DNA from: a virus
DNA: 64,000 bases
Virus record (IMG/VR): IMGVR_UViG_3300000117_000011
Coordinates: 18,119 to 82,118 of that record
Direction: 5' to 3' (one strand)
The position numbers were made by a program, and so were the translations under genes. Positions within the stretch are counted from its first letter, which is position 1. The number at the start of each line of letters is the position of its first letter. The notes beneath the pieces are model-generated. The model made no database searches and was not told where the DNA came from. It worked only from the letters and a program-made list of their open reading frames with translations. Of this stretch, positions 15,290 through 63,477 are shown in pieces.

Positions 15290-18200
15290 ATGTCAGCATT
15301 GAAACCTGATACAGACGACCTACATACGCTTGGTACGTCGGATAAAAAATGGAAAGAACTCCATGTTCACGATATTGAATTGAAATCGAGCTTAAAATTA
15401 GAAGGCTCAAGCTCGGGCGTATCGACACTAGCTACCTTGGCCGCAGCTGCTGATACAACAATTAATTTGCCTGCAATGGCTACAGGTACATATCATCTAC
15501 CAGTTTTAGCTTCAGCTACAACAACAGCAATTGCTGCTACGCCTGAAGAACTTAATCTTCTTGACGCAGGTACAGCAAGAACAGCATTTGCCGGGGGAGA
15601 TGGCTTACAGCTTGCAGACGAACTTATAATTGATGATAATTCTGCAAGTGCGTCTAAAAAAATACAAGTTCAAGATCTGGTTGATTTTCTTGAAACAACA
15701 AACGGTGTGAGCGGCTTTGCTTCTGCAGTTTCGATTACAGATTCTACTGCGTCTTCTAGCGTAGGTACTGGTGCTTTAAAAGTCGATGGTGGCGTAGGTA
15801 TTGATAAAGAGTTATTTGTAGGTTTAACAGCTAATATTGCAGGTATTGCAACATTTCAGGATTCACTCGCTATTCAGAGTCAACCTGCAAATGCTCTTGG
15901 TATTCGCTTTAACTCTGATCGGGGTGAGAATGACATCAATAGTACAGACTACGACGTTAAGGTCATTGATGTCTTTGCGGGAACAGGAGATGCAACTCAA
16001 GGTACAATCCTTTGGGATGATGATCAATCCTCTTTCTCGGTAACAAGCGGAAAACTTCACTCTGAAACGCAGTTTACAGTAGGACCGATTGCCACTCCTA
16101 ACTTTACAGTTGCGCCAACAACCGGTGTAATTGATGTTGAAGGTTCAGCTCCAGTTCTTACTATAAAAAATACAGCTAGTGATGCAGTTGGTGGTGTGTT
16201 AAAACTTGTTAATGATAAAGGCGCTGCAGGCGCTGATAATGATGTTGCAGGTGCAATTGAATTTCATGCTGATGATGATGCTCAAGATCAAGTTAAGTTT
16301 GCTGAAATTAAGGCACAAGTTGCTGATGCATCTCAAAGTTATGAAGGTGGTAAATTAACTCTAAGCGTTGCTTCACACGACGGAGGTTTAGCAAGTGGTA
16401 TTGTTATAAATGGTGGCACTCAAATTACAGATGCTACATGTGATACGACTGAAAATAGTACAACTGTAACGATGGATAGCACTGCAAATCTACATGTAGG
16501 AATGGGTGTTATAGGAACAGGTATTCCAGCATTAGCTACTGTTGCAAGTATTCATGCGAACGGAACTGAATTTACACTGTCTGCACAAGCGACTGCATCA
16601 AACAATGACGAAACGTTAACATTTATAAATGCAGATGACGAAGTTGATGTAACAATTGGTAACGGTTCAAATTCTACAGTAACAATCCCGGGTAATCTAA
16701 CTGTTCAAGGAACAACAGTTACAGTAGACACTACAAATTTAAGTGTGAGTGATCAAAATATTCTTATTAATGATGGTGGTTCATTAGCAAACTCAGCAGG
16801 AGCAGGATTAGATATCGAAGCAGCCGGCTCGGTCGCTGGCTTTATGAGAGTAGCATCAAGCCATGCTAATCTAGAGTTTAAAGCACCTTCTGGAAGTACT
16901 TTAACTCTAGATGTTGATGCTAACAAAACACTTACAGTAAATGGTGATCTAAATATTTCAGGTGATTCTGTAATTAATCAAGATTTATCATCAAACTCTA
17001 CTAATGCAGAACTTGGAAGATTAACACTCAGTAATGCTTCAGGTTTATTACCAAAGACTACTGCAGGCGGGGGCTTTATTGATATCGGCTCAGCTACTGC
17101 AGAATTTGGTGACATTTTTGTTGGTGATGGAAAAGGACTTAAGCTTGGCGCGGATCAAGATGTAACAATTTTACATGATTCTGCTGTAGGTCTTGCAATT
17201 GAATCGACAGGTGATATCGGTATTAGTTCAAATGCCGGTAGCATTAACATTGGCGCTGATCTGGCAGATGATCAAACTTTAAAGCTTGGTAAAGCAAGTA
17301 CTGTTCAAACAATTATTGCACCGAGCAATACAGCTGGTAGTGAGCTTTACTCTGTAATTAACACTGCAGGTGATACAACAGGTGCTGATGGTGCAGGTGC
17401 TATTTTACTCAGTTCAGTAGCTGGTGGTATGGGTCTTGCTTGGAATGCTGCTAAAGCATTACATGCACAAGGTGGTACAGCTGTTATCGCTGCTGAAGAA
17501 AATATTGCTAATGCTATTAAGCTTCACGCAACTGCAGGCTCTAGTCAGTCTATCAGATTAGAAAACACTGCAGGTTCAGCTGATGCATCGACAATTACAG
17601 ATGCTACATGTGATACGACTGAAAATAGTACAACTGTGACAATGGATGATACATCAGCTATTGCAGCTAACATGTCAGTTTCAGGAACAGGTATACCAGC
17701 TGGTGCTTTTGTTGTAAGTGTTACAAATGGAACCTCTTTTGTACTGTCTGCACAAGCGACTGTGTCAAACACTAATGAGACTTTGACATTTACTAAATCC
17801 GCTGCAATTGATTTAACAGCATCAGCTGGTGGTGTTAATATTGATGCTGCAGCAGCTAAAGATGTTAAGATTTCTGGTGGTCAATTAGCTTTAACTTCAA
17901 AAGATGATGCCGCTTCTGCAATTTCATTAACTGCTAATGTAGGTACAAGTGAAACAATTGTCGTAACAAATACACAAGGTACAGCTGACGGTACAAATTC
18001 AAATGCAGCTGCAGTTCAATTAACTTCAACTGCAGGTGGTATGGGTCTAGCTTGGAATGATGCTATGGATCTTTGGGCTGAAGGTGGTAGAGCAATTATT
18101 ACTGCTAATGAAAACCCAGGATCAGCTGGTCCAGTTATTAAATTACATGCTGATGCAGGAGCTAATCAAACTATACAGTTGTTAAACGATGCCGGTACAG

Positions 18201-21081: not shown

Positions 21082-21127
21082 TATAAATTGACCTCACTTT
21101 TATTATAATATTAATGAAAGTGAGGTC
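21082..21127 (+). promoter_or_regulatory. Late-promoter-like element plus RBS-masking hairpin before the nuclease gene
   Basis: TATAAATT (21082-21089) matches the T4 late element TATAAATA at 7 of 8 positions. It is followed at once by a perfect 11-bp inverted repeat: GACCTCACTTT (21090-21100), a 16-nt loop, and AAAGTGAGGTC (21117-21127). The right arm contains GAGG (21122-21125), the ribosome site for the ATG at 21132, so RNA read through from upstream would have a masked start. A late transcript starting about 6 nt after the TATAAATT would lack the outer half of the left arm. There is no T-run after the stem, which argues against a simple terminator. Confidence 0.6.
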
Positions 21128-21131
21128 TGTT

Positions 21132-21965
21132 ATGACTATTTTAAAGGAGCATGTCTCCTATTCTGAAGTTCGTCAATGGAAAGAGTGTCCTTGGCGACAT
21201 AAGTTATTATACATAGATAAATTATCAACATTTGAAGAAAGTCCTCATTTGCATTACGGAACAATCATTCACGATGCATGTGAGCACTTTTTAAAAACAA
21301 AAGAACTTAAAATCGAAGAAGCACAAAGCAAGATTAAAGCTGCATGGGACGAACATGGCTTTGACTCAGAAGATTTTATTCAGTTGCAAACACAACGCGC
21401 AGAGATTCAAGGTTGGAAGTACAAGCATAGCAAGCTAAAAGACTGGCTACAATGGGCAGAAGCAAGTATAAGCTCAGTGCCACAATTTTTAGATGAAACG
21501 TTTCCTGGTTGGGAATTCCAATCAGCGGAAGAAGCTTTATATGAAAACATGCAAAACATTAATACAAAATTTAAAGGCTATATCGATTGTATCATAAAAG
21601 TCCCGCACAAAGAAAAATATAAATATTGGGTGTTAGATTGGAAAACATCTAATGGAAGAGGTTGGTCTTTAGATAAACAAAGAGACTTTAAGACGCAAGC
21701 ACAAGTTATACTTTATAAGCACTTTTGGGGAACTAAGCATAACGTAGATATGAAAGACATACAGTGTGGTTTTATTTTACTTAAAAAGGTTAAGACAGTA
21801 GGTAAATCATGTCAGCTCATAAAAGTTTCAGCAGGTCCAAAAAACTTAGAAAAATCACAAAAAATGGTGAGAAGCATGATTAAAACTGTAGAAAAACAAT
21901 TTTTTCTAAAAAATAGAAATTCTTGTATGTTTTGTGAATTTAAAAATACTGACTATTGTAGATAG
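21132..21965 (+). CDS. PD-(D/E)XK nuclease, Cas4/RecB-like, with four conserved-type cysteines
   Basis: 277 residues from the ATG at 21132 (GAGG 6 nt upstream). An ATG at 21114 would add six residues but has no ribosome site. The N-terminus SYSEVRQWKECPWRHKLLY is the typical opening of RecB/Cas4-type nucleases. Next come GTIIHDACEHFL (active-site histidine region), FKGYIDCI (first Asp) and WVLDWKTS (the D-x-K signature). The C-terminus has CMFCEFKNTDYC. With the cysteine of CPWR this gives four cysteines arranged as in the iron-sulphur nucleases Cas4 and AddB. Family role: DNA end processing or exonuclease. Inference: the phage uses it in recombination, replication-end trimming or host DNA degradation. 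Expression is probably controlled by the hairpin upstream. Confidence 0.85.
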   Translation: MTILKEHVSYSEVRQWKECPWRHKLLYIDKLSTFEESPHLHYGTIIHDACEHFLKTKELKIEEAQSKIKAAWDEHGFDSEDFIQLQTQRAEIQGWKYKHSKLKDWLQWAEASISSVPQFLDETFPGWEFQSAEEALYENMQNINTKFKGYIDCIIKVPHKEKYKYWVLDWKTSNGRGWSLDKQRDFKTQAQVILYKHFWGTKHNVDMKDIQCGFILLKKVKTVGKSCQLIKVSAGPKNLEKSQKMVRSMIKTVEKQFFLKNRNSCMFCEFKNTDYCR

Positions 21966-21971
21966 GAAAAT

Positions 21972-23222
21972 ATGAGTAAAAAGAAAATATTAATAATTTC
22001 AGATCACGCTTTGTCTCCAAGTGGTGTAGGTGTACAAACAAAGTTTTTAGTTGAAGGTCTACTTAAAACAAACGATTATGAATTTATTCAATTAGGCGCA
22101 GCTGTAAAACACCAGAATTATAGTACAGTTAAAGTAAATGATAATTTCTATATAAAACCTATAGATGGATTTGGGAGTCCAGCGCTGTTAAGATCTGTTA
22201 TTCTAAACGAACAGCCTGATGCGTTGTTAATATTCACTGACCCTAGATTTTTTACATGGTTATTTCAAATTGAAGATGAAATAAGACAAGTGTGTCCTAT
22301 TTTATGGTGGCATGTTTGGGATAACAAACCTACTCCTAAATTTAACTATTGGATGTACGACTCAACAGATGCTATTAATTGTCACTCTTATTTGACTTAC
22401 TTAATGTGCAAAGAAAACTATGATAAGAAGACAACTTTTATTCCTCACGCTTTCCCGAAATCTGTTTTTTACAAGATTGATGATAATTTAAGAAAAAGTG
22501 AAAAGAAGAGAATATTAGGTGAGAAAAGAAAAGATAATTTTGTATGCCTTTGGATGAATAGAAATTGTAAAAGAAAAAGACCCGGGGACGTATTATATTC
22601 TTGGAAGTTATTTCTTGAAAGTCTAAACAAAGAAGATAGAAAAAATGTTACACTTTTGCTTCACACTAACCCGAAAGATAATGCTGGATGTAATTTGTTT
22701 GAAATAGGCTACAACTTAGACATATTAGACACAGTTGCTTTTTCTACAGAAAAAGTTGAAACAGAACACATTAATGTTTTACACAACATTTCAGATGTTT
22801 GCTTAAATATGAGCTTCAATGAAGGTTTTGGTTTAACAACACTTGAATCAATGATGACTGGAACGCCTATCATTGCTGCTAAAACTGGAGGTTTATATAG
22901 ACAAGTTATAGACTTTAGAGATAATACAGAAAATGGTATAGCGATAGATATAAAAAACAAGTCACTTGTTGGTAGCCAAAATGTACCTTATATCTTTGAA
23001 GACTATGTTGATAATCAAGATGTTGCAAACGCCATTATGAAAATATACAAAATGAATTTTGAAGAAAAATTAAAGCTTAGCGAAAAGGTAATAAACTACG
23101 CAAATTTTGCGTTTAATTATGAAAATACAATTAACTTATGGGACAAATCAATAAGAAAGACAATTGAGGAATTTAAGTGTCAAAAACAAAAAACAAACGT
23201 AACAGCGATCACTTTAAAGTAA
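21972..23222 (+). CDS. GT-B fold glycosyltransferase (GT4-like) 1
   Basis: 416 residues. AGGAA (21964-21968) lies close to the ATG. The first domain begins KKILIISDHALSPSGVGVQT, the glycine-containing nucleotide-fold start of GT-B enzymes. The second domain contains the E-x7-E nucleotide-sugar motif NEGFGLTTLE (E284 and E292), followed by GTPIIAAKTGG. WWHVWDNKPTPKFNYW is a distinctive aromatic stretch in the acceptor-side domain. Family role: transfer of a sugar from a nucleotide sugar. Acceptor unknown: virion protein, modified DNA base or host glycan are all possible. The last 46 nt overlap the next glycosyltransferase, so the two are probably co-translated. Confidence 0.88.
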   Translation: MSKKKILIISDHALSPSGVGVQTKFLVEGLLKTNDYEFIQLGAAVKHQNYSTVKVNDNFYIKPIDGFGSPALLRSVILNEQPDALLIFTDPRFFTWLFQIEDEIRQVCPILWWHVWDNKPTPKFNYWMYDSTDAINCHSYLTYLMCKENYDKKTTFIPHAFPKSVFYKIDDNLRKSEKKRILGEKRKDNFVCLWMNRNCKRKRPGDVLYSWKLFLESLNKEDRKNVTLLLHTNPKDNAGCNLFEIGYNLDILDTVAFSTEKVETEHINVLHNISDVCLNMSFNEGFGLTTLESMMTGTPIIAAKTGGLYRQVIDFRDNTENGIAIDIKNKSLVGSQNVPYIFEDYVDNQDVANAIMKIYKMNFEEKLKLSEKVINYANFAFNYENTINLWDKSIRKTIEEFKCQKQKTNVTAITLK

Positions 23223-56200: not shown

Positions 56201-56488
56201 GGCAAAACAAATTTTAAAATAAATTGTTCTACACACACAGACTTGAATGTTTTTGAATTAAATCTTCCTGCACATAGAGGTGAGACAAACAAATCTAATA
56301 ATTTGTCTTATATTGATAATTTAAGACTTGACAAATCAGCATTTAACGCTGATGAAGATTTTGTCTATATTACAGATATAGATTTACATGATGAAAATTT
56401 AAACGTTGTAGCTTCTGTAAAGTTGGCGCAACCTTTTGCTAAAAAAGATAGTGATAACGTTTTATTTAGAGTTAAAATGGATTTTTAA
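53240..56488 (+). CDS. Large LamG-like structural protein
   Basis: 1082 residues, starting 1 nt after the previous stop. The first ~200 residues are mostly helical (IAKDLETELDTTLQDFIDNL). Residues ~230-494 form a LamG/concanavalin-like jelly-roll: YSFSFYVNPKRS, NNWHNVCISYKI, ISLYVDGVLIEEFVF, GELCDIRIYNEYFDSEKAS. The C-terminal region contains LIHPSMFNFGKTNFKIN and ends in the module shared with the preceding protein. Inference: a wedge or peripheral baseplate protein with a carbohydrate-binding domain. Its stop overlaps the RuvC-like start (TAATG), linking structural and recombination genes in one transcript. Confidence 0.75.
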   Translation: MILNPINKDMIVHSSIELQPTINYVSASNDCHFLNRLDISSAGVYGDLKAESLNIRQASSERTDRLYNVNDTFLSDGDYNLVEKLKIAKDLETELDTTLQDFIDNLDTSSLTTQEAIEMFVIYTGAVAKVKKDNFANQGLKKINYDSSFKVERIEKKFIIDNPSYLKKSAVLNMFNYYRENMSHNNFFDLYWGFKNYNSLNFFNLYDDINSNFKNNITHKNCVIYPNLYVNGKSTYKFNADEYSFSFYVNPKRSVSSSFHYNPGCVLNIPGVISIYLVKGTSLNENNETNKFRIFCELGDNSYNSINTNFANFDIDDTGKQTNNFSFLSSDNLLKLNNWHNVCISYKINNVNSSNKSNISLYVDGVLIEEFVFNSNIHNVTQNSAIFIGNKTTLLENEISDFVLHAFSKDNQNLDDNEGPYIKKHILFGSEVDSVLNTGSDSNKTYLFKNKLNEIENSYVLESTSQSFNGELCDIRIYNEYFDSEKASNIYASGIPDLQKEIDEFNLSFYLPVYYRSQKVKKEGLVNLSAPYQVYDDSIEGVGLVNVDDNLQGNYIFTYTNGNENQVETLEFKVKTENISYNFPVNPFFLNFTGGTDVSVEHFLREFVKQTQPNVVIGGSIKSDAYQDCFLGKPNAILNDIVFNDLTKKGHTPFSLYEKIVKTLTLDDLNNINIDYQENNISYRNYMILPNDNGIQRQYYNQKVFNYNDGDFLDSHKNELDEISFDFVSLKNIDKSHSLNNSIPKTSMLISDNFSIDGETIEENERKPYRFNNKILSLLSSNGTNRSLDPSFKERCDKIKNISLGNFHNLENSSYFHDYDLAGISNSSIFRNTGIIPDTRIEFISNNTGFYKTLSNPSQRSYYSSHDNTISETEVYDFKQIEENSQIVYKKILMPLEQLEKDFNENCSTIFSISTQLFNKKIKRETFEIKDVDLSMSSGLSMTFKDSNLGSLYRSDSLTPHAEWNTSGNILYNEGIVTLIHPSMFNFGKTNFKINCSTHTDLNVFELNLPAHRGETNKSNNLSYIDNLRLDKSAFNADEDFVYITDIDLHDENLNVVASVKLAQPFAKKDSDNVLFRVKMDF

Positions 56489-57072
56489 TGGAAGATGAAA
56501 ATAAAGTTTGTTATTTAGGATTAGATATTTCGACTTCAATTATAGGCTTTTGTTTAATAAATTACAAAAAAGAATTAGTTTTATTAGATTATATAGATTT
56601 AAGAAAGATTAAGTGTATCTTTAAAAAGTCTGAGCTTGTTAAGGAAAAGTTATATAGTATTAAGAAAGATTATATATTTTCTGATGGTTTTAGTATTTCA
56701 ATAGAAGAAGCATTTCAAAGTTTCAGTAAAGGATTCTCTTCAGCTAGAACATTGTCTCAGCTTAATAGATTTAATGGTATAGTATCTTACCAATGTTATG
56801 AAATATTTAGTAGTGTACCTTTCTATATAAATGTAAACAGCGCAAGAAAGAATTTACAAATAAAAATTAATAAAAAATTAAGTATAAATACAAAAGAACA
56901 AGTATTTCAGTGGGTTCAGAATAGCATTGAAGACTTTGACTGGCCTATGAAAACTTTAAAGTCTGGACCAAATAAAGGTGTTGTAAAATTTCACGAATGT
57001 TGTTATGATATGTCTGACGCATATGTAATTTGTAAGGCACTAATTTATAATGATGAAAATAACAATCAGTGA
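56488..57072 (+). CDS. RuvC-like Holliday junction resolvase
   Basis: 194 residues. The RNase-H-like fold opens with CYLGLDISTSIIGFCLIN (catalytic D13), followed by the second acidic site SISIEEAFQSFSKG (E73/E74) and the terminal acidic pair YDMSDAYVIC (D174, D177). These are the positions of the four carboxylates in RuvC. The length equals that of cellular RuvC. Role: metal-dependent symmetric cleavage of four-way junctions. In T4 this job is done by the unrelated gp49 (endonuclease VII) to clear branches before packaging. Its location just upstream of primase, Mre11/Rad50 and terminase fits the same task. Confidence 0.85.
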   Translation: MEDENKVCYLGLDISTSIIGFCLINYKKELVLLDYIDLRKIKCIFKKSELVKEKLYSIKKDYIFSDGFSISIEEAFQSFSKGFSSARTLSQLNRFNGIVSYQCYEIFSSVPFYINVNSARKNLQIKINKKLSINTKEQVFQWVQNSIEDFDWPMKTLKSGPNKGVVKFHECCYDMSDAYVICKALIYNDENNNQ

Positions 57073-58054
57073 AAAAATAAGTTTTCTAGAAAGCTTTTTA
57101 AATACAACACTATCAAAAGACGGGCATAATATTAACATATGGTGTCCTTTTTGCAAACATAGTAATAAAAATAAGTTAAAGCTAGCGATTCACTTAGAAA
57201 AAAATATTTATCATTGTTGGCTTTGTGACAAAAAAGGTTCAAATATTTCTTATCTTGTTTCTAGACTTAGTCCAGGGAAACAAGATAAGGCAGCAAAGTT
57301 ATTTAAATCATCTAATAAAAAGACTGGTGATTTTGATTTTATACTGAATAGTCTTAATGATTGTTGGTCTCTTTCTAAAGATGATACAGAAAACATAGAA
57401 CCTATTGACTTTCCTGAAGACTTTAGGCTTTTAGCAACTGATTTTAACAGTAATGATCCTGACATAAGAGACATATTTAAATATGCACTTAATAGAGGAT
57501 TATCTAAACATAAACTATGGCTGTTAAAAGTTGGTTATTCTCATAAAAAAGAATTTAGAAGATCACTAATAATTCCTTCTTTAGATGAAAATGGCGAGAT
57601 TAATTTTTATACGTCTCGAAAAATAGATGTTAGCTCTAAAGACTCGTATAAATACAAAAATGCCAGTGTCCAAAAAAAGTCAATAGTCTTTAACGATATA
57701 AATATTGATTGGAGTTTACCACTTACAATAGTTGAAGGACCATTAGATTTACTTAAAACAAATGATAATGCAACTTGTTTATTAGGGTCTTCTTTGACAG
57801 AAGACATGTTACTATTTAAAAAAATAGTAAAAAATTCTACGGAAATTAATCTGGCTTTAGATAGCGATGTATACTATAAAACTATTGAAATATCTGATTT
57901 ATTATCTTCATATAATATTAAAGTAAATATTTTAGATACAAGATGCGCAGAAGACGTAGGTGACATGACTCTGTCACAATTTAAAAGCTGTCTAGAAACA
58001 GCAAAAACATATAACAAAGAATCAAAGCTATTATCAAAAATAGCTTCAATTTAA
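57050..58054 (+). CDS. DNA primase (zinc finger + TOPRIM)
   Basis: 334 residues; overlaps the RuvC-like gene by 23 nt. Two adjacent ATGs (57050 and 57053) are possible starts. The N-terminal zinc-binding domain has CPFC (C32, C35) and HCWLC (C56, C59), the CHC2-type layout IWCPFC...IYHCWLC. The centre is the primase fold, with RRSLIIPSLDENGEINFYTS. The TOPRIM motifs are IVEGPLDLL (E229) and LALDSDV (D271, D273). It corresponds in size and architecture to T4 gp61, which makes RNA primers with the gp41 helicase. No helicase domain is fused. Helicase and polymerase genes must lie outside the window. Confidence 0.9.
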   Translation: MMKITISEKISFLESFLNTTLSKDGHNINIWCPFCKHSNKNKLKLAIHLEKNIYHCWLCDKKGSNISYLVSRLSPGKQDKAAKLFKSSNKKTGDFDFILNSLNDCWSLSKDDTENIEPIDFPEDFRLLATDFNSNDPDIRDIFKYALNRGLSKHKLWLLKVGYSHKKEFRRSLIIPSLDENGEINFYTSRKIDVSSKDSYKYKNASVQKKSIVFNDINIDWSLPLTIVEGPLDLLKTNDNATCLLGSSLTEDMLLFKKIVKNSTEINLALDSDVYYKTIEISDLLSSYNIKVNILDTRCAEDVGDMTLSQFKSCLETAKTYNKESKLLSKIASI

Positions 58055-58062
58055 GGTACAAA

Positions 58063-61000
58063 ATGTCAGTAAAATTTGCGCATATATCAGATGTCCACTG
58101 GAGAAGCTTGAAAAGGCACGATGAGTACAGGACAGTTTTTAATTCTTTATTTGACAGTTTAAAAAAAGAAAAGCCTGACATTATTTTTATTGGTGGCGAC
58201 ATAGTACATTCTAAAACTCAAGGTATTACTCCAGAGCTTATAGAAAATCTCACGTGGTGGTTTACAAACTTAGCCGAAATTGCTCCAACGCATATAATCC
58301 TGGGTAATCATGATGGTTTAATTTTAAATGAAAATCGTCAAGATGCTATAACTCCTATAATAGAAGCATTAAATAATAGCAACATATATCTTTACAAAAA
58401 GAGTGGAATATATGAAATTCCTAATACAGATATAAACTGGGCAGTCTTTTCTTGCTTTGATCATAAAAACTGGGGTAATGTTAAGCCTGTTAAAAACAAG
58501 ATTAATATAGCTTGTTTTCATGGCGCAGTTTGGGGTTCTAAAACTGATGTTGACTGGGAGCTTGATGGTGAAGTAAGTTTAGACTTTTTTAGCGAGTATG
58601 ATTTTTCTTTTTTAGGCGATATTCATAAAATGCAATATCTAGATAAAGAAAAAAGAGTCGCCTATCCAGGATCAACAATCCAGCAAAATTATGGAGAAGA
58701 TATTCTTAAAGGGTATTTAATTTGGGAAATTGAAAATAAGTACGACTTTAGTAGTAGATTTATTAATCTAGATAATCCTTATCCTTTTGTAACGATTGAC
58801 TGGAAAGATTCTGTCGAAAAAACAGTAAAATTCTGCGAAAGAATTAAAAAGCAAGCAAGGTTTAGGATTAGATCAGAAAATTCGATATCTCAAGCAGAAA
58901 TAAAATTACTACATTACTATCTCAAAAACGATAAAGAAGCAAAAGAAATTGTATATCAAGTTTTAAGTAACATACCTAAACATGTTAGCTTAAATAATAA
59001 TCTTGCAAAAGAAAATAATTTCGACATAAGAAAAAGTAATGAAAGAAATTTATTATTAAAAAGTTTATATCAAGATATTAACGACGAAACACTTAGTAAA
59101 CTTAATAGTGTGTTTAAGATCAAACTAGATGAAATTCCAGAGACTTTATCTGTTTTTAAAGATAGTTGGTCGATTAATTCAATAAATTTTAGTAATACTT
59201 TTTCTTATGGAAAAGATAACTATATTAATTTTTCAAATCTTTCCGGAGTAATAGGTTTATTTGGCAACAACCGATCAGGCAAGTCTTCAATTCCAGGTAC
59301 TTTAATGTACACGCTTTTCAACACTTCAGATAGAGGTTCAATAAAAAATCAAGATATCGTTAACATTAGAAAAGGCGAATGCACTTCTAACGTTAATATT
59401 TCTGTAGGATCTAAAAACTATGACGTAACTAGAAAGACTACTAAAAAGACCAATAAAAAAGGCACGACTTCAGCTAGCACAAGTTTAGAACTTAAAAGAA
59501 ACGATATTAGTCTTAATGAAACTGAAGAACAGAGAAGAGAAACAGATAAAATACTAAAAAATTTAATTGGTTCTGCTGAAGACTTTCTTTATACAAGTTT
59601 TGCTTCGCAAGGCGAGATGAATACTTTTATTAAGGAAAAATCAAGTGCAAGAAAATCTGTTTTGTCAAAATTTCTCAATCTAGACGTTTTTGAAAGTTTA
59701 CATAAAAACTCTAGAGAAGACTACATTGTGTTGAAAAATAAATTAAAATCAATAAATGAAGAAAACTGGGATTTGTTGATTGAAAATGTTAATAAAGATA
59801 TATTAAATGTATGCAAAGAAATAGAATTAAACGAAGAAGAAATATCAAAATTAAGAGCAGAAGAGCTAAAAATAAATATAAATATATCAAACTTAGATAA
59901 TGATATAGATAGACACACATCAGGTTATACCTTAGATTCTTGTAACAAAGAAATTCAATTTATTGAAAATAAAACAAACAAAAATATACAAAACATCGAA
60001 GATGTAAAGAACAGACTACATGAAATAAAAGAAAAATTAGAAAAAATTAATTTTTTTAAAATTAATCATCCTATTGATGATCTTGAAAATGACAAACAGA
60101 AACTTGACAATCTTTTAGATAAGATAAAAAAGTTTAGTTTTGAGAAAAAAAACCTTACAAATCAAAAAAAATCAGATGAAAATGAAATTAAAATTCTCGA
60201 TCAGGTACCTTGTGGAGATCAATTCTTAACTTGTAAATTTATAAAAAAAGCACATGAAGCTAAGAGTAATAAAAATGAGCTTTCAAGTAATATAAGTGAA
60301 ATAGAAGGATCAATTTTTGAAATTAGAGGTGTTATTAATAAATTAAAAGATCAGGAAATTGATGAAAAAATAAAAAAGTATAACTTAATATTGAATTCAG
60401 AATATCGTCTTAAAATTGACTCAGAAAGACTTGTAGAAAAAAAATTAATGTACAAAGAAAAGAGTTTATCTTTAAAAAAAGAATTTGACAAACTCCAGAT
60501 TATATTCGGTGAGCTTAAAAGCACAAATAATGATAATCTAATTAAAGAAGTAAATAAAAGCAAAACAGCGCTTAATAGAGTTCAAGATGACATATTTTCT
60601 TTAGAAAGAAAAAACAAGGAAAAACAGTTTGATTTATTTAGATTAAAAAAGAGTATAGAAGAAATAAAAAATCGACAAGCAACATACACCAAAATAGTTT
60701 CAGAGTGGAAAATTTATGACATGTTTACTTATGCCGTGTCAAAAAAAGGTATTCCAACATTTATTATTAACTCTTGCTTACCAAAAATCAATGAAGAAAT
60801 TAATAATATTCTCAATGGCGTAACATCTTTTAAGATTGAAATACAGGAAGAAGCTTCTAATAACAATTTAAACGTTTATATAGACTATGGTGACTCAAAA
60901 AGAATTATTGAGTGTGCAAGTGGAATGGAAAAAATGATTACTTCTATTGCTATTAGAGTTGCATTAATTAACATATCTTCATTACCAAAATCAGATATAT

Positions 61001-61191
61001 TTATTATTGATGAAGGTTTTGGTGCACTTGATGATACAAACATAGAAGCTTGTGCAAGACTTTTAAATAGTTTAAAAAAATATTTTAAGACTATACTGAT
61101 AATATCACATGTTGATGCAATCAAAGATATTGTAGATAAAAATATAGAAATTTCAATGAAAGGTCAAGATTCTTATGTTAATTGTAGATGA
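58063..61191 (+). CDS. Mre11-Rad50 (SbcD-SbcC; gp47-gp46) single-chain fusion
   Basis: 1042 residues. Residues 1-~240 form the Mre11/SbcD phosphoesterase: HISDVHW (D10, H12), GGDIVH (D46), LGNHDG (81-85), CFHGAVWG (H153), LGDIHKM (D186, H188), all metal ligands present. Residues ~380-1042 form the Rad50/SbcC ATPase: Walker A GNNRSGKS (401-408), Q-loop SFASQGE (Q516), long coiled coils with a hook CGDQFLTC (C717, C724), signature ASGMEK (from 952), Walker B FIIDEGFGALDD (D983, E984). In T4 these are two genes, 47 and 46; here one frame encodes both without an internal stop. Role: end resection and recombination-dependent replication, and nucleolytic processing of host DNA. Confidence 0.95.
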   Translation: MSVKFAHISDVHWRSLKRHDEYRTVFNSLFDSLKKEKPDIIFIGGDIVHSKTQGITPELIENLTWWFTNLAEIAPTHIILGNHDGLILNENRQDAITPIIEALNNSNIYLYKKSGIYEIPNTDINWAVFSCFDHKNWGNVKPVKNKINIACFHGAVWGSKTDVDWELDGEVSLDFFSEYDFSFLGDIHKMQYLDKEKRVAYPGSTIQQNYGEDILKGYLIWEIENKYDFSSRFINLDNPYPFVTIDWKDSVEKTVKFCERIKKQARFRIRSENSISQAEIKLLHYYLKNDKEAKEIVYQVLSNIPKHVSLNNNLAKENNFDIRKSNERNLLLKSLYQDINDETLSKLNSVFKIKLDEIPETLSVFKDSWSINSINFSNTFSYGKDNYINFSNLSGVIGLFGNNRSGKSSIPGTLMYTLFNTSDRGSIKNQDIVNIRKGECTSNVNISVGSKNYDVTRKTTKKTNKKGTTSASTSLELKRNDISLNETEEQRRETDKILKNLIGSAEDFLYTSFASQGEMNTFIKEKSSARKSVLSKFLNLDVFESLHKNSREDYIVLKNKLKSINEENWDLLIENVNKDILNVCKEIELNEEEISKLRAEELKININISNLDNDIDRHTSGYTLDSCNKEIQFIENKTNKNIQNIEDVKNRLHEIKEKLEKINFFKINHPIDDLENDKQKLDNLLDKIKKFSFEKKNLTNQKKSDENEIKILDQVPCGDQFLTCKFIKKAHEAKSNKNELSSNISEIEGSIFEIRGVINKLKDQEIDEKIKKYNLILNSEYRLKIDSERLVEKKLMYKEKSLSLKKEFDKLQIIFGELKSTNNDNLIKEVNKSKTALNRVQDDIFSLERKNKEKQFDLFRLKKSIEEIKNRQATYTKIVSEWKIYDMFTYAVSKKGIPTFIINSCLPKINEEINNILNGVTSFKIEIQEEASNNNLNVYIDYGDSKRIIECASGMEKMITSIAIRVALINISSLPKSDIFIIDEGFGALDDTNIEACARLLNSLKKYFKTILIISHVDAIKDIVDKNIEISMKGQDSYVNCR

Positions 61192-61435
61192 TGATAAATG
61201 GCATAAAGTTGATAAAGATTTAGAAGAAAAAAAGTATAACAACATACGATTTGTTAGACCAAAAGACTACAAGCCTGTTTCGCTATCATGTAGCTTTTGT
61301 GATACTTTAATTGCCACAGTAGAAGATGTTGAGTCTATGAAAGAAGCTAATGTTTGTGAAAATTGCTACATAACATATTATTATCATAATAAAGATAAGT
61401 GGAAAAAAGGCTGGAGGCCAAATATTAAAAGGTAA
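61175..61435 (+). CDS. Small zinc-ribbon protein
   Basis: 86 residues; the ATG at 61175 lies 17 nt inside the end of the Mre11-Rad50 gene, in another frame. Four cysteines in two pairs, CSFC (39, 42) and CENC (61, 64), form a probable zinc ribbon. The N- and C-termini are basic and aromatic (KKYNNIRFVRPKDYKP; HNKDKWKKGWRPN). Small ribbons of this kind may bind nucleic acid or polymerase, but function is unknown. Its position after the recombination genes and before the terminase suggests replication, transcription or packaging. Confidence 0.75.
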   Translation: MLIVDDDKWHKVDKDLEEKKYNNIRFVRPKDYKPVSLSCSFCDTLIATVEDVESMKEANVCENCYITYYYHNKDKWKKGWRPNIKR

Positions 61436-61854: not shown

Positions 61855-63477
61855 ATGAAAACTAGAAACGGGCAAATTAATGAAATAATAAAGTGTGGCA
61901 AAGATCCTGTCTACTTTATGAACAAGTATCTAAAGATACAACACCCGTTACGTGGATTAATTAAATTTAATACATTTCCCTTTCAAGATGATTGTGTTGA
62001 AGATTTTAATGAACATAGGTTTAATATTATATTAAAATCAAGACAGCTAGGTTTGTCAACTTTAGTTGCTGCGTATGCTGTTTGGCAGTCTGTTTTTTAT
62101 AAAGAAAAAAATATATTAATCATTGCTACAAAGTTAGCAGTTGCACAAAATTTTATAAGAAAAGTTAAGACTTATATAAAATCAATGCCTAAATGGCTGT
62201 TAGTACCTACTATAGTTGCTAATAATAAACAACAAGTTGAGTTTTCTAACGGCTCACAAATAAAAGCAGTACCAACATCAGAAGATGCAGGTCGCTCAGA
62301 AGCTTTATCACTTTTAATTGTAGACGAGGCAGCTTTTGTTAGAAATTTCGATGAGCTTTGGATGGGATTATACCCTACTCTATCAACTGGTGGACGTGCT
62401 ATTCTTCTTTCAACGCCAAATGGTGTTGGTGGGCAATACCATGAAATATATACAAAAGCTGTAAGAAAAGAAAATGAATTTAATTCTATAAAGCTTATGT
62501 GGGATGTCCATCCAGAAAGAAATGATGATTGGTTTGAAAAAGAAACCAAAAACATGTCTAAAAAACAAGTTGCACAAGAGCTCTTGTGCGATTTTGCATC
62601 TTCTGGTGACACTTTTTTAACAAATGACGTTCTAGACAAGATTAGAGTTTTAAGCAAAGAGCCTATTGAAAAAAGCGGACCTAATAATAATATATGGTAT
62701 TGGGAATACCCGATTGAAGAAGTAAACTACATACTTTCAGCAGATATTGCTAGAGGAGATAGTGGAGACTATTCAACATTTCATGTAATAAACACAAAAA
62801 ACATGTCAATATCATCTGAATTTAAAGGCAAAATACCTCCAGATCAATTTGCTTCACTAGTTTACGATGTTGCTAAAAGATTTAACACAGCAATGGTCTG
62901 CCCAGAAAACAATGCTTATGGTTATACAATGCTTGTTAAACTTTCTGATTTAGGTTATAAAAATATTTATTTTGCAAAAGAAAAAGACAAATATGAGTAT
63001 CTTTACGGCGGGTCAAATAATATAGGTAAAGCAGGGTTTACTACAAGCAAGGAAAGCAGAGATAAGATTCTTGCTAATCTTGAAGAAAGCCTTAGAAATG
63101 GTATAATTAAAACATATTCTCATAGACTGTTCTCAGAATTAAAAACGTTTATTTGGAATGGTAAAAAAATAACTGCTATGAAAGGTTATAACGATGACCT
63201 TATCATGTCAATTGCTATTGGCTGCTGGTTATCTGGAAGTAATTCAAGTAGTTATAACGTTTCACAAATTCAGCAAGCTGATGCTATTTTAAAAGGCATG
63301 GAAGTTAACAATACAAAAGTTGATAATACAATAATATCACCTTTTTATAGAAATAATCAAAGTACTGTAAATCCAATGATACCAGTCTTTATGCCTGGCG
63401 GCAAATTTACAGATAAAAACAGCGAAATAACAAGAAATAACCCGTTAGGCAATTTAGATTGGTTAATTAGGAAGTAG
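61855..63477 (+). CDS. 17: Terminase large subunit (gp17-like)
   Basis: 540 residues. ATPase domain: adenine/Walker A region IILKSRQLGLSTL (61-69, a classical terminase variant), Walker B LLIVDEAAF (153-161, with catalytic E158) and coupling motif LLSTPNG. Nuclease domain (RNase-H-like): ILSADIARGDSGDYS (D297; D302/D305 nearby), CPENNAYG (E351) and GYNDDLIMS (D447/D448). These match the two-domain plan of T4 gp17 (610 aa). Role: ATP-driven DNA translocation into the prohead and headful cutting. No strong ribosome site is seen before the ATG at 61855. The portal gene follows at once. Confidence 0.96.
   Translation: MKTRNGQINEIIKCGKDPVYFMNKYLKIQHPLRGLIKFNTFPFQDDCVEDFNEHRFNIILKSRQLGLSTLVAAYAVWQSVFYKEKNILIIATKLAVAQNFIRKVKTYIKSMPKWLLVPTIVANNKQQVEFSNGSQIKAVPTSEDAGRSEALSLLIVDEAAFVRNFDELWMGLYPTLSTGGRAILLSTPNGVGGQYHEIYTKAVRKENEFNSIKLMWDVHPERNDDWFEKETKNMSKKQVAQELLCDFASSGDTFLTNDVLDKIRVLSKEPIEKSGPNNNIWYWEYPIEEVNYILSADIARGDSGDYSTFHVINTKNMSISSEFKGKIPPDQFASLVYDVAKRFNTAMVCPENNAYGYTMLVKLSDLGYKNIYFAKEKDKYEYLYGGSNNIGKAGFTTSKESRDKILANLEESLRNGIIKTYSHRLFSELKTFIWNGKKITAMKGYNDDLIMSIAIGCWLSGSNSSSYNVSQIQQADAILKGMEVNNTKVDNTIISPFYRNNQSTVNPMIPVFMPGGKFTDKNSEITRNNPLGNLDWLIRK

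Follow-up and report, generated by a model that had tools for sequence, protein, structure and literature searches.

A predicted single-chain Mre11–Rad50 (gp47–gp46) protein of a tailed phage and the cysteine loop of its coiled coil

According to Yoshida et al (2011; PMC3175470), the nuclease Mre11 (SbcD; gp47 in phage T4) is fused to the ATPase Rad50 (SbcC; gp46) in Mimivirus (R555) and a Bacillus phage, as well as in plasmids, bacteria, and eukaryotes. The same paper argued that a fusion is compatible with the known complex, since the C-terminus of Mre11 lies ∼28 Å from the N-terminus of Rad50 in that of T. maritima. R555 deviates from the canonical nuclease at two positions: the last Asp of GDxxD is replaced by His, and His206 (P. 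furiosus numbering) by Asp; many abundant aquatic homologues of R555 were inferred to be phage genes, and SPO1 gp21.95-like primases were among the phage genes on scaffolds carrying the marine ones (PMC3175470). Reported fused proteins include those of a C. kluyveri plasmid, a Deferribacter plasmid, and Bacillus phage 0305phi8-36, which were not searched for by name here. A literature search at the level of bibliographic records found no work on phage fusions later than that of Yoshida et al (2011). The present analysis concerns one gene in a 64,000-nucleotide stretch of viral DNA (the window; positions 18,119 to 82,118 of IMG/VR record IMGVR_UViG_3300000117_000011). Judged from its sequence and a structure model, it very probably encodes a single-chain SbcD–SbcC (Mre11–Rad50, gp47–gp46) enzyme of a tailed phage and is a bacteriophage member of the R555-type fusions.

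Like R555, to which it was compared by published description, the window protein carries Mre11 followed by Rad50 in one chain, a GDxxH motif, and an Asp in motif V; like the R555 homologues, its family occurs in aquatic metagenomes with homologues of SPO1-type phage primases on the scaffolds. R555, however, has 1351 residues and a coiled coil described as being of cellular length (PMC3175470), compared with 1042 residues here. With gp47/gp46 of T4 and gp21.3/gp21.9 of SPO1, the protein shares the same two predicted activities and a phage replication setting, and the SbcC gene of SPO1 also adjoins a primase gene; in T4 and SPO1, however, nuclease and ATPase are encoded by separate genes with others between them, motif V contains His, and the hook is CxxC. 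Fold and catalytic motifs are those of E. coli SbcCD and cellular Mre11–Rad50, but the E. coli genes are separate (with a 4-base overlap) and motif V again has His. Two isolated phages, Microcystis phage Mel-JY01 (WWT39521.1) and Tenacibaculum phage PTm1 (BBI90467.1, annotated as one coding sequence), have fused proteins with the motif V Asp, but their hooks are CxxC (CKHC and CPTC, respectively).

The statement of a first-pass annotation of the window that the two proteins are separate subunits in T4 and in cells thus describes the canonical complexes only, fusions having been published in 2011 (PMC3175470); the fusion as such is already known, and its interest is therefore limited. What goes beyond the parts of that paper considered here is a Cx6C hook, a conserved block of neighboring genes, and relatives that are cut inside Mre11.

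An uninterrupted frame and its relatives

The window gene (Table 1) is a single unbroken frame on the plus strand, which begins with ATG and contains no internal stop; 1042 consecutive sense codons are expected by chance with a probability of ∼10^−45 at the gene's own base composition. When Pfam, PHROGs, and NCBIfam were scanned, residues 4–189 matched Pfam Metallophos (E 4e-13), residues 374–605 Pfam AAA_23 (E 2e-5; 25.7 bits, slightly below the cut-off of 27), and residues 263–1039 PHROG 77 (SbcC-like; E 4e-44). The N-terminal part has a metallophosphoesterase fold with its five motifs, one ligand being substituted (D186), and it precedes, within the same open frame, a Rad50 part with an ABC ATPase lobe at either end that together contain Walker A, Q loop, signature, Walker B, and D-loop. 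The AlphaFold2 model of the fused protein had a mean predicted local distance difference test score (pLDDT) of 85.1 and a predicted template-modeling score of 0.50, which makes the domains credible, but not their placement relative to each other. Model residues 3–301 aligned with SbcD of S. aureus (7dog_B; Z 25.9, root-mean-square deviation 3.0 over 277 residues), and residues 369–1042 with SbcC of E. coli (7yzo_D; Z 32.8, deviation 3.0 over 351 residues). The best matches by E-value in BFVD (to 5e-57; Foldseek) were long single chains with more than 1,000 aligned columns from giant viruses (Tupanvirus, 1379 residues; Yasminevirus, 1389; Harvfovirus, 1343; Terrestrivirus, 969; Catovirus, 1215) and Tenacibaculum phages (PTm1, 1318; pT24, 1310); their template-modeling scores of merely 0.3–0.5 are expected if the long coiled coils differ. 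The 95,164-base source record contains one match to the fused protein.

Scanning IMG/VR with the fused protein yielded seven loci; the fused frame was complete in six, and in the seventh it was truncated by the end of the contig. A profile scan with a seven-row alignment matched at least 600 stretches, among them at least 587 relatives; the best 80 loci were kept, of which 72 had the complete fused frame, the remaining eight being edge-cut and all containing Mre11 sequence. The peptides used in both scans lacked the hook, two loci (L003 and L005) were common to both sets (85 loci together), and loci were classed as fused or cut with profile matches. From these, an alignment of 68 rows was made (67 of the 85 loci plus the window, after removal of near-duplicates and truncated loci). 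The fused homologue of Mel-JY01 (1066 residues) was 31% identical over 99% of the query. Overall, 121 distinct full-length fused sequences were collected, including those of the window, PTm1, LR756501, and Listeria phage LMTA-57, and the fused layout is common to many contigs at 32–85% identity. The first-pass annotation, which had reported gp47 and gp46 in one uninterrupted frame, was accordingly correct on the frame and on the identity of both domains. The abundance of relatives in IMG/VR, together with their phage neighbors (see below), supports the 2011 proposal that many fusions belong to phages.

One scan of cellular genome contigs returned 12 loci, 11 from metagenome-assembled genomes and one from an isolate (L099). 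The full fusion was present in six (L088, L089, L090, L092, L093, and L096), three were cut by an edge (L091, with the N-terminal part only, L094, and L095), and two (L098 and L099) were Mre11-like only; L097 is ambiguous, as the rule used classed it as split but its frame spans 1108 residues and matches weakly, starting at position 177. Fused genes in cellular bins may lie on phage contigs within those bins. That of L088 is carried by a 306-kb contig assigned to a Methylococcaceae TMED69 bin; this contig could itself be a jumbo phage. A plasmid origin was considered and rejected, as no plasmid record covered 80% of the query (partial matches occurred in seven records).

Active site, junction, and alternative explanations

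The active-site residues of both halves are nearly invariant. D10, H12, D46, H83, and H153 were kept in all 67 rows that reach the respective column (N82 in 66 of 67), and D186, H188, K407, S408, C724, S953, G954, E956, D983, E984, D990, and H1016 in 68/68 rows; M955 was nearly invariant. Motif II of the window protein reads GDIVH, with His for the last Asp of GDxxD, and GDxxH was found by regular expression in 113 of the 121 distinct sequences (eight unmatched). The earlier claim that all motifs are present was nearly right, the departure being motif V (GDIH), where Asp186 occupies the position of a His in T4 gp47, SPO1, A511, MTATph1, and E. coli SbcD. This Asp was found in all five fused references (the window, L004, Mel-JY01, PTm1, and LR756501) and in none of the five separate ones.

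The substitution allows another explanation, namely that the enzyme was repurposed as an ATPase scaffold with weak or lost nuclease that tethers phage DNA, and the fact that the change from His to Asp is present in 68/68 rows and in at least 115 of the 121 distinct sequences (regular expression; five unmatched, one His) would fit such a role. Asp can, however, serve as a metal ligand, and the remaining metal ligands and the catalytic His are conserved. The nuclease domain is, moreover, strongly constrained: compared with the 85% identical relative L002, the ratio of nonsynonymous to synonymous substitution rates (dN/dS) was 0.041 in the nuclease (a rough value, since dS was high, at 1.55), 0.125 in the capping and helical part, 0.231 at the junction, 0.059 and 0.056 in the ATPase lobes, 0.110 in the coiled coil, incomputable in the hook because of dS, and 0.085 for the whole gene. 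Every part is under purifying selection, and loss of the nuclease in favor of a tethering role is considered unlikely.

It is still conceivable that the chain is made as one and then separated by a protease, or that internal initiation yields a second product, so that the working enzyme is an ordinary two-subunit complex. Among the aligned relatives, 49 of 68 have a Met within residues 325–405, which would permit internal initiation in these, and a Met-free junction (19/68) is not a rule of the family. In the window gene, however, no Met codon occurs between residues 191 and 414, and the only candidate starts in codons 281–425 are GTG 350, which is not preceded by a Shine–Dalgarno sequence, and ATG 415, which is downstream of Walker A (401–408). 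With no usable start at the junction, separation of the halves by the ribosome, which the first-pass annotation had named as a way to refute the fusion, is unlikely in this gene. Furthermore, eight relatives that are encoded in two pieces (see below) are cut inside the nuclease rather than at the domain junction, and an ordinary two-subunit enzyme arising by either route is, on the whole, very improbable.

The other refuting case named there, a sequencing or assembly error that joins two neighboring genes, seems to have an example in phage LMTA-57 (L238:3417-6446), whose 1009-residue frame corresponds to two genes (350 and 627 residues) in A511 and crosses what is, by eye, the A511 intergenic stretch with hairpin and T run, promoter-like stretch, ribosome-binding site, and start codon; the LMTA-57 frame is likely to reflect a sequencing error or a recent read-through. 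For the window gene, such an artefact is refuted by the intact layout of many contigs at the identities given above, by the constant length of the stretch ahead of the Rad50 start (the equivalent of residues 341–369; 28–33 residues in 68/68 rows), and by a junction that contains neither a Met codon nor a start preceded by a Shine–Dalgarno sequence, and its probability is negligible.

The hook loop and the proposed mode of action

The loop at the tip of the coiled coil, which the first-pass annotation did not mention, contains six residues between Cys717 and Cys724 (Cx6C) and no CxxC. Because the canonical motif is absent and the two cysteines lie at the tip, the protein is best named not a canonical Rad50 but a fused relative whose hook is a variant. 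Among the 68 rows, which were chosen regardless of the hook, C717 was conserved in 66 and C724 in all, with the exact Cx6C spacing in 65; two rows had CxxC (L072 and L073) and one a longer loop (L017), and His731 followed the hook in 52. The 121 distinct fused sequences comprised 94 with Cx6C, 26 with CxxC, and one with neither, a ratio that should not be read as a frequency, given that Cx6C was selected for in one scan and CxxC, in part, in another: a scan with a Cx6C DNA pattern gave at least 120 stretches, of which 119 loci were classed, and another scan had a CxxC-containing peptide among its patterns. In five of the 94 Cx6C hooks, a third cysteine is present just upstream (e.g., PCDCFEHLPTC; PCxC...PxC in L022, L045, L048, L082, and L086). 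T4 gp46, SPO1 gp21.9, A511, phage G gp375, PTm1, and Mel-JY01 have CxxC, and MTATph1 has neither type. When the two hook types are aligned, the first Cys of CxxC and the second Cys of Cx6C occupy one column. The sequences of L072 (CxxC) and L088 (Cx6C) are sisters with an ultrafast bootstrap (UFBoot) support of 100, which indicates that hook types have switched. No earlier description of a Cx6C hook was found in the literature search at bibliographic-record level, and a term search of the main text of PMC3175470 gave zero occurrences of "zinc," "hook," and "cysteine."

By analogy, the role of the enzyme is most likely DNA-end processing for recombination-dependent phage replication, which is deduced from the primase-like, RuvC-like, and terminase neighbors and from T4. 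Two chains would pair via their Mre11 halves and ATP-bound heads, and the helical segment of each nuclease half would clamp the coiled-coil root of its own chain, so that the nuclease would never be apart from the ATPase. Access of the nuclease to DNA ends would be gated by an ATP-driven cycle of opening and closing, and the cysteine loop would act as a hook that links the tips of two chains, probably by a shared zinc ion held between them by two cysteines per chain. Broken or terminal DNA ends would thereby be processed for recombination-dependent replication ahead of packaging. The canonical M2R2 complex is already 1:1; the idea put forward earlier, that a fixed 1:1 fusion constrains the architecture of this complex, therefore holds insofar as each Mre11 is tied to a particular Rad50 by the fusion, but the ratio itself is unchanged. 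What a hook needs (CxxC geometry, zinc, or merely two cysteines) becomes testable in a natural single-chain enzyme.

Several observations weigh against this picture of a hooked, active single-chain enzyme. Nuclease and ATPase activity are predicted from sequence and model, and the His-to-Asp change in motif V could alter or lower nuclease activity, the rough dN/dS in the nuclease and hook adding to the doubt. The pLDDT is 51–56 at residues 301–320 and 67 at residues 361–370, and the cis geometry of the helical segment is thus not fixed by the model. Cx6C differs from the characterized zinc hook, so that a disulfide or a non-metal role is possible, and it is not tied to the fusion: CxxC is present in the fused proteins of Mel-JY01, PTm1, and LR756501. 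Finally, the source record may be a fragment.

Cut relatives, origin, and genome neighborhood

Among the 119 Cx6C-pattern loci, 82 were joined at the Mre11/Rad50 junction (51 complete, 23 edge-cut 5′, and eight edge-cut 3′) and none had a separate Rad50; 31 were uninformative, their sequence starting at an edge within Rad50. The remaining six were cut inside Mre11. Together with L236, which came from another scan, and huge phage LR756508 (L216), eight relatives are cut at about residue 193, just past motif V (L109, L110, L124, L155, L160, L183, L216, and L236). In L109, L124, L155, L160, and L183, the second frame starts at the stop of the first or overlaps it; in L110, a frame of 72 codons separates the two Mre11 pieces; and in L236, the stop-to-stop frames overlap at the cut position. 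In the six Cx6C-pattern loci, the first piece shares a tail of approximately EIDExDLxxYPGAEV. The pieces of LR756508 are separated by an open reading frame of 305 residues (L216:5665-6579) in which a TnsA-like endonuclease domain (E 6e-6) was recognized, along with similarity to an HNH endonuclease family (E 3e-15) and also to a PHROG called head closure (E 2e-10); by sequence, it looks like a homing endonuclease. This is the only one of the eight cut relatives with an endonuclease-like gene at the cut site. A comparable case is nrdA of Aeromonas phage Aeh1, which is broken by a homing endonuclease and whose pieces still work (PMC2988022); the likeness is to LR756508, not to the window gene, and the cut Mre11 forms, unlike split nrdA, are known here from sequence. 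These relatives would represent natural split nucleases.

A tree was calculated from 59 sequences and 582 columns (LG+F+R4), with T4, SPO1, A511, MTATph1, and E. coli as the separate references; it included L221–L224 and L228, which were chosen by profile, and left out LMTA-57 and phage G (whose Mre11 gene was not located). The fused phage sequences, together with the relatives cut inside Mre11, formed one clade (UFBoot 100) apart from the five separate references, which suggests a single origin in this sample with just these five. The single-origin reading covers phage sequences; several origins have been argued for the fusions of giant viruses, plasmids, and eukaryotes (Yoshida et al, 2011; PMC3175470), which were not in the tree. 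Six cut sequences fell into one group (UFBoot 92; without L110), and LR756508 was apart from them, beside L092 and L093 (UFBoot 95). Taken together, it may be that Cx6C is a rebuilt intermolecular metal hook, in which one Cys of CxxC was kept and the other replaced seven residues upstream, that hook types were swapped as modules between phages, and that at least two homing-endonuclease breaks occurred at a single position within the active-site domain of Mre11, giving functional pieces with part of Mre11 left on Rad50; we put this combination forward tentatively, with doubt slightly outweighing belief.

The window gene is embedded in a block of RuvC-like, primase, fusion, and terminase genes (Table 1) that is conserved. 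Among the distinct fused relatives with enough flank, a primase-like gene was a neighbor in 88/101, a RuvC-like gene in 62/86, a terminase gene in 78/95, and a gene for a small protein with two CxxC pairs in 59/112.

Table 1. Positions in the window of the fused gene, its parts, and its neighbors.
Feature	Position	Strand	Basis or remarks
Fused Mre11–Rad50 gene, 1042 residues	58063..61191	+	Pfam, PHROG, model, structure alignment
Mre11-type nuclease half, residues 1–365; Rad50-type ATPase half, residues 366–1042
Mre11 phosphodiesterase domain, residues 1–245	58063..58797	+	Pfam, alignment
Metal/catalytic residues of the Mre11 domain			D10, H12, D46, N82, H83, H153, D186 (replacing His), H188
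Mre11 capping part, then helical segment, residues 246–365	58798..59157	+	Model secondary structure, pLDDT; domain borders within 246–365 are the analyst's reading of the model
Helical segment			Helices 325–335, 341–355, 360–363; occupies the place of the Rad50-binding helix-loop-helix
Rad50 N lobe, residues 366–560	59158..59742	+	Alignment, structure match; Walker A GNNRSGKS 401–408, Q516
Coiled coil, first arm, residues 561–714	59743..60204	+	Model helices
Hook loop VPCGDQFLTCKFI, residues 715–727, Cys717-x6-Cys724	60205..60243	+	Between helices 671–714 and 728–763 (model)
Coiled coil, second arm, residues 728–890	60244..60732	+	Model
Rad50 C lobe, residues 891–1042	60733..61188	+	Alignment
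C-lobe motifs			Signature SGMEK 953–957, Walker B D983 E984, D-loop D990, H1016
RuvC-like Holliday junction resolvase	56488..57072	+	phrog_159 E 9e-6; no Pfam match
Primase-like protein, CHC2 zinc finger, directly upstream	57050..58054	+	Zn_ribbon_DnaG E 1e-6; phrog_47 DNA primase E 1e-33
86-residue protein, two CxxC pairs, 17-base overlap with the end of the fused gene	61175-61435		No Pfam/PHROG match
Terminase large subunit, downstream	61855..63477	+	Terminase_6N E 1e-17

Elsewhere in the window, an exonuclease gene (21114-21965; PHROG 69, with a weak Cas4-type match) lies next to a glycosyltransferase gene (21972-23222), the two giving the sole PHROG matches among the eight other window genes scanned.

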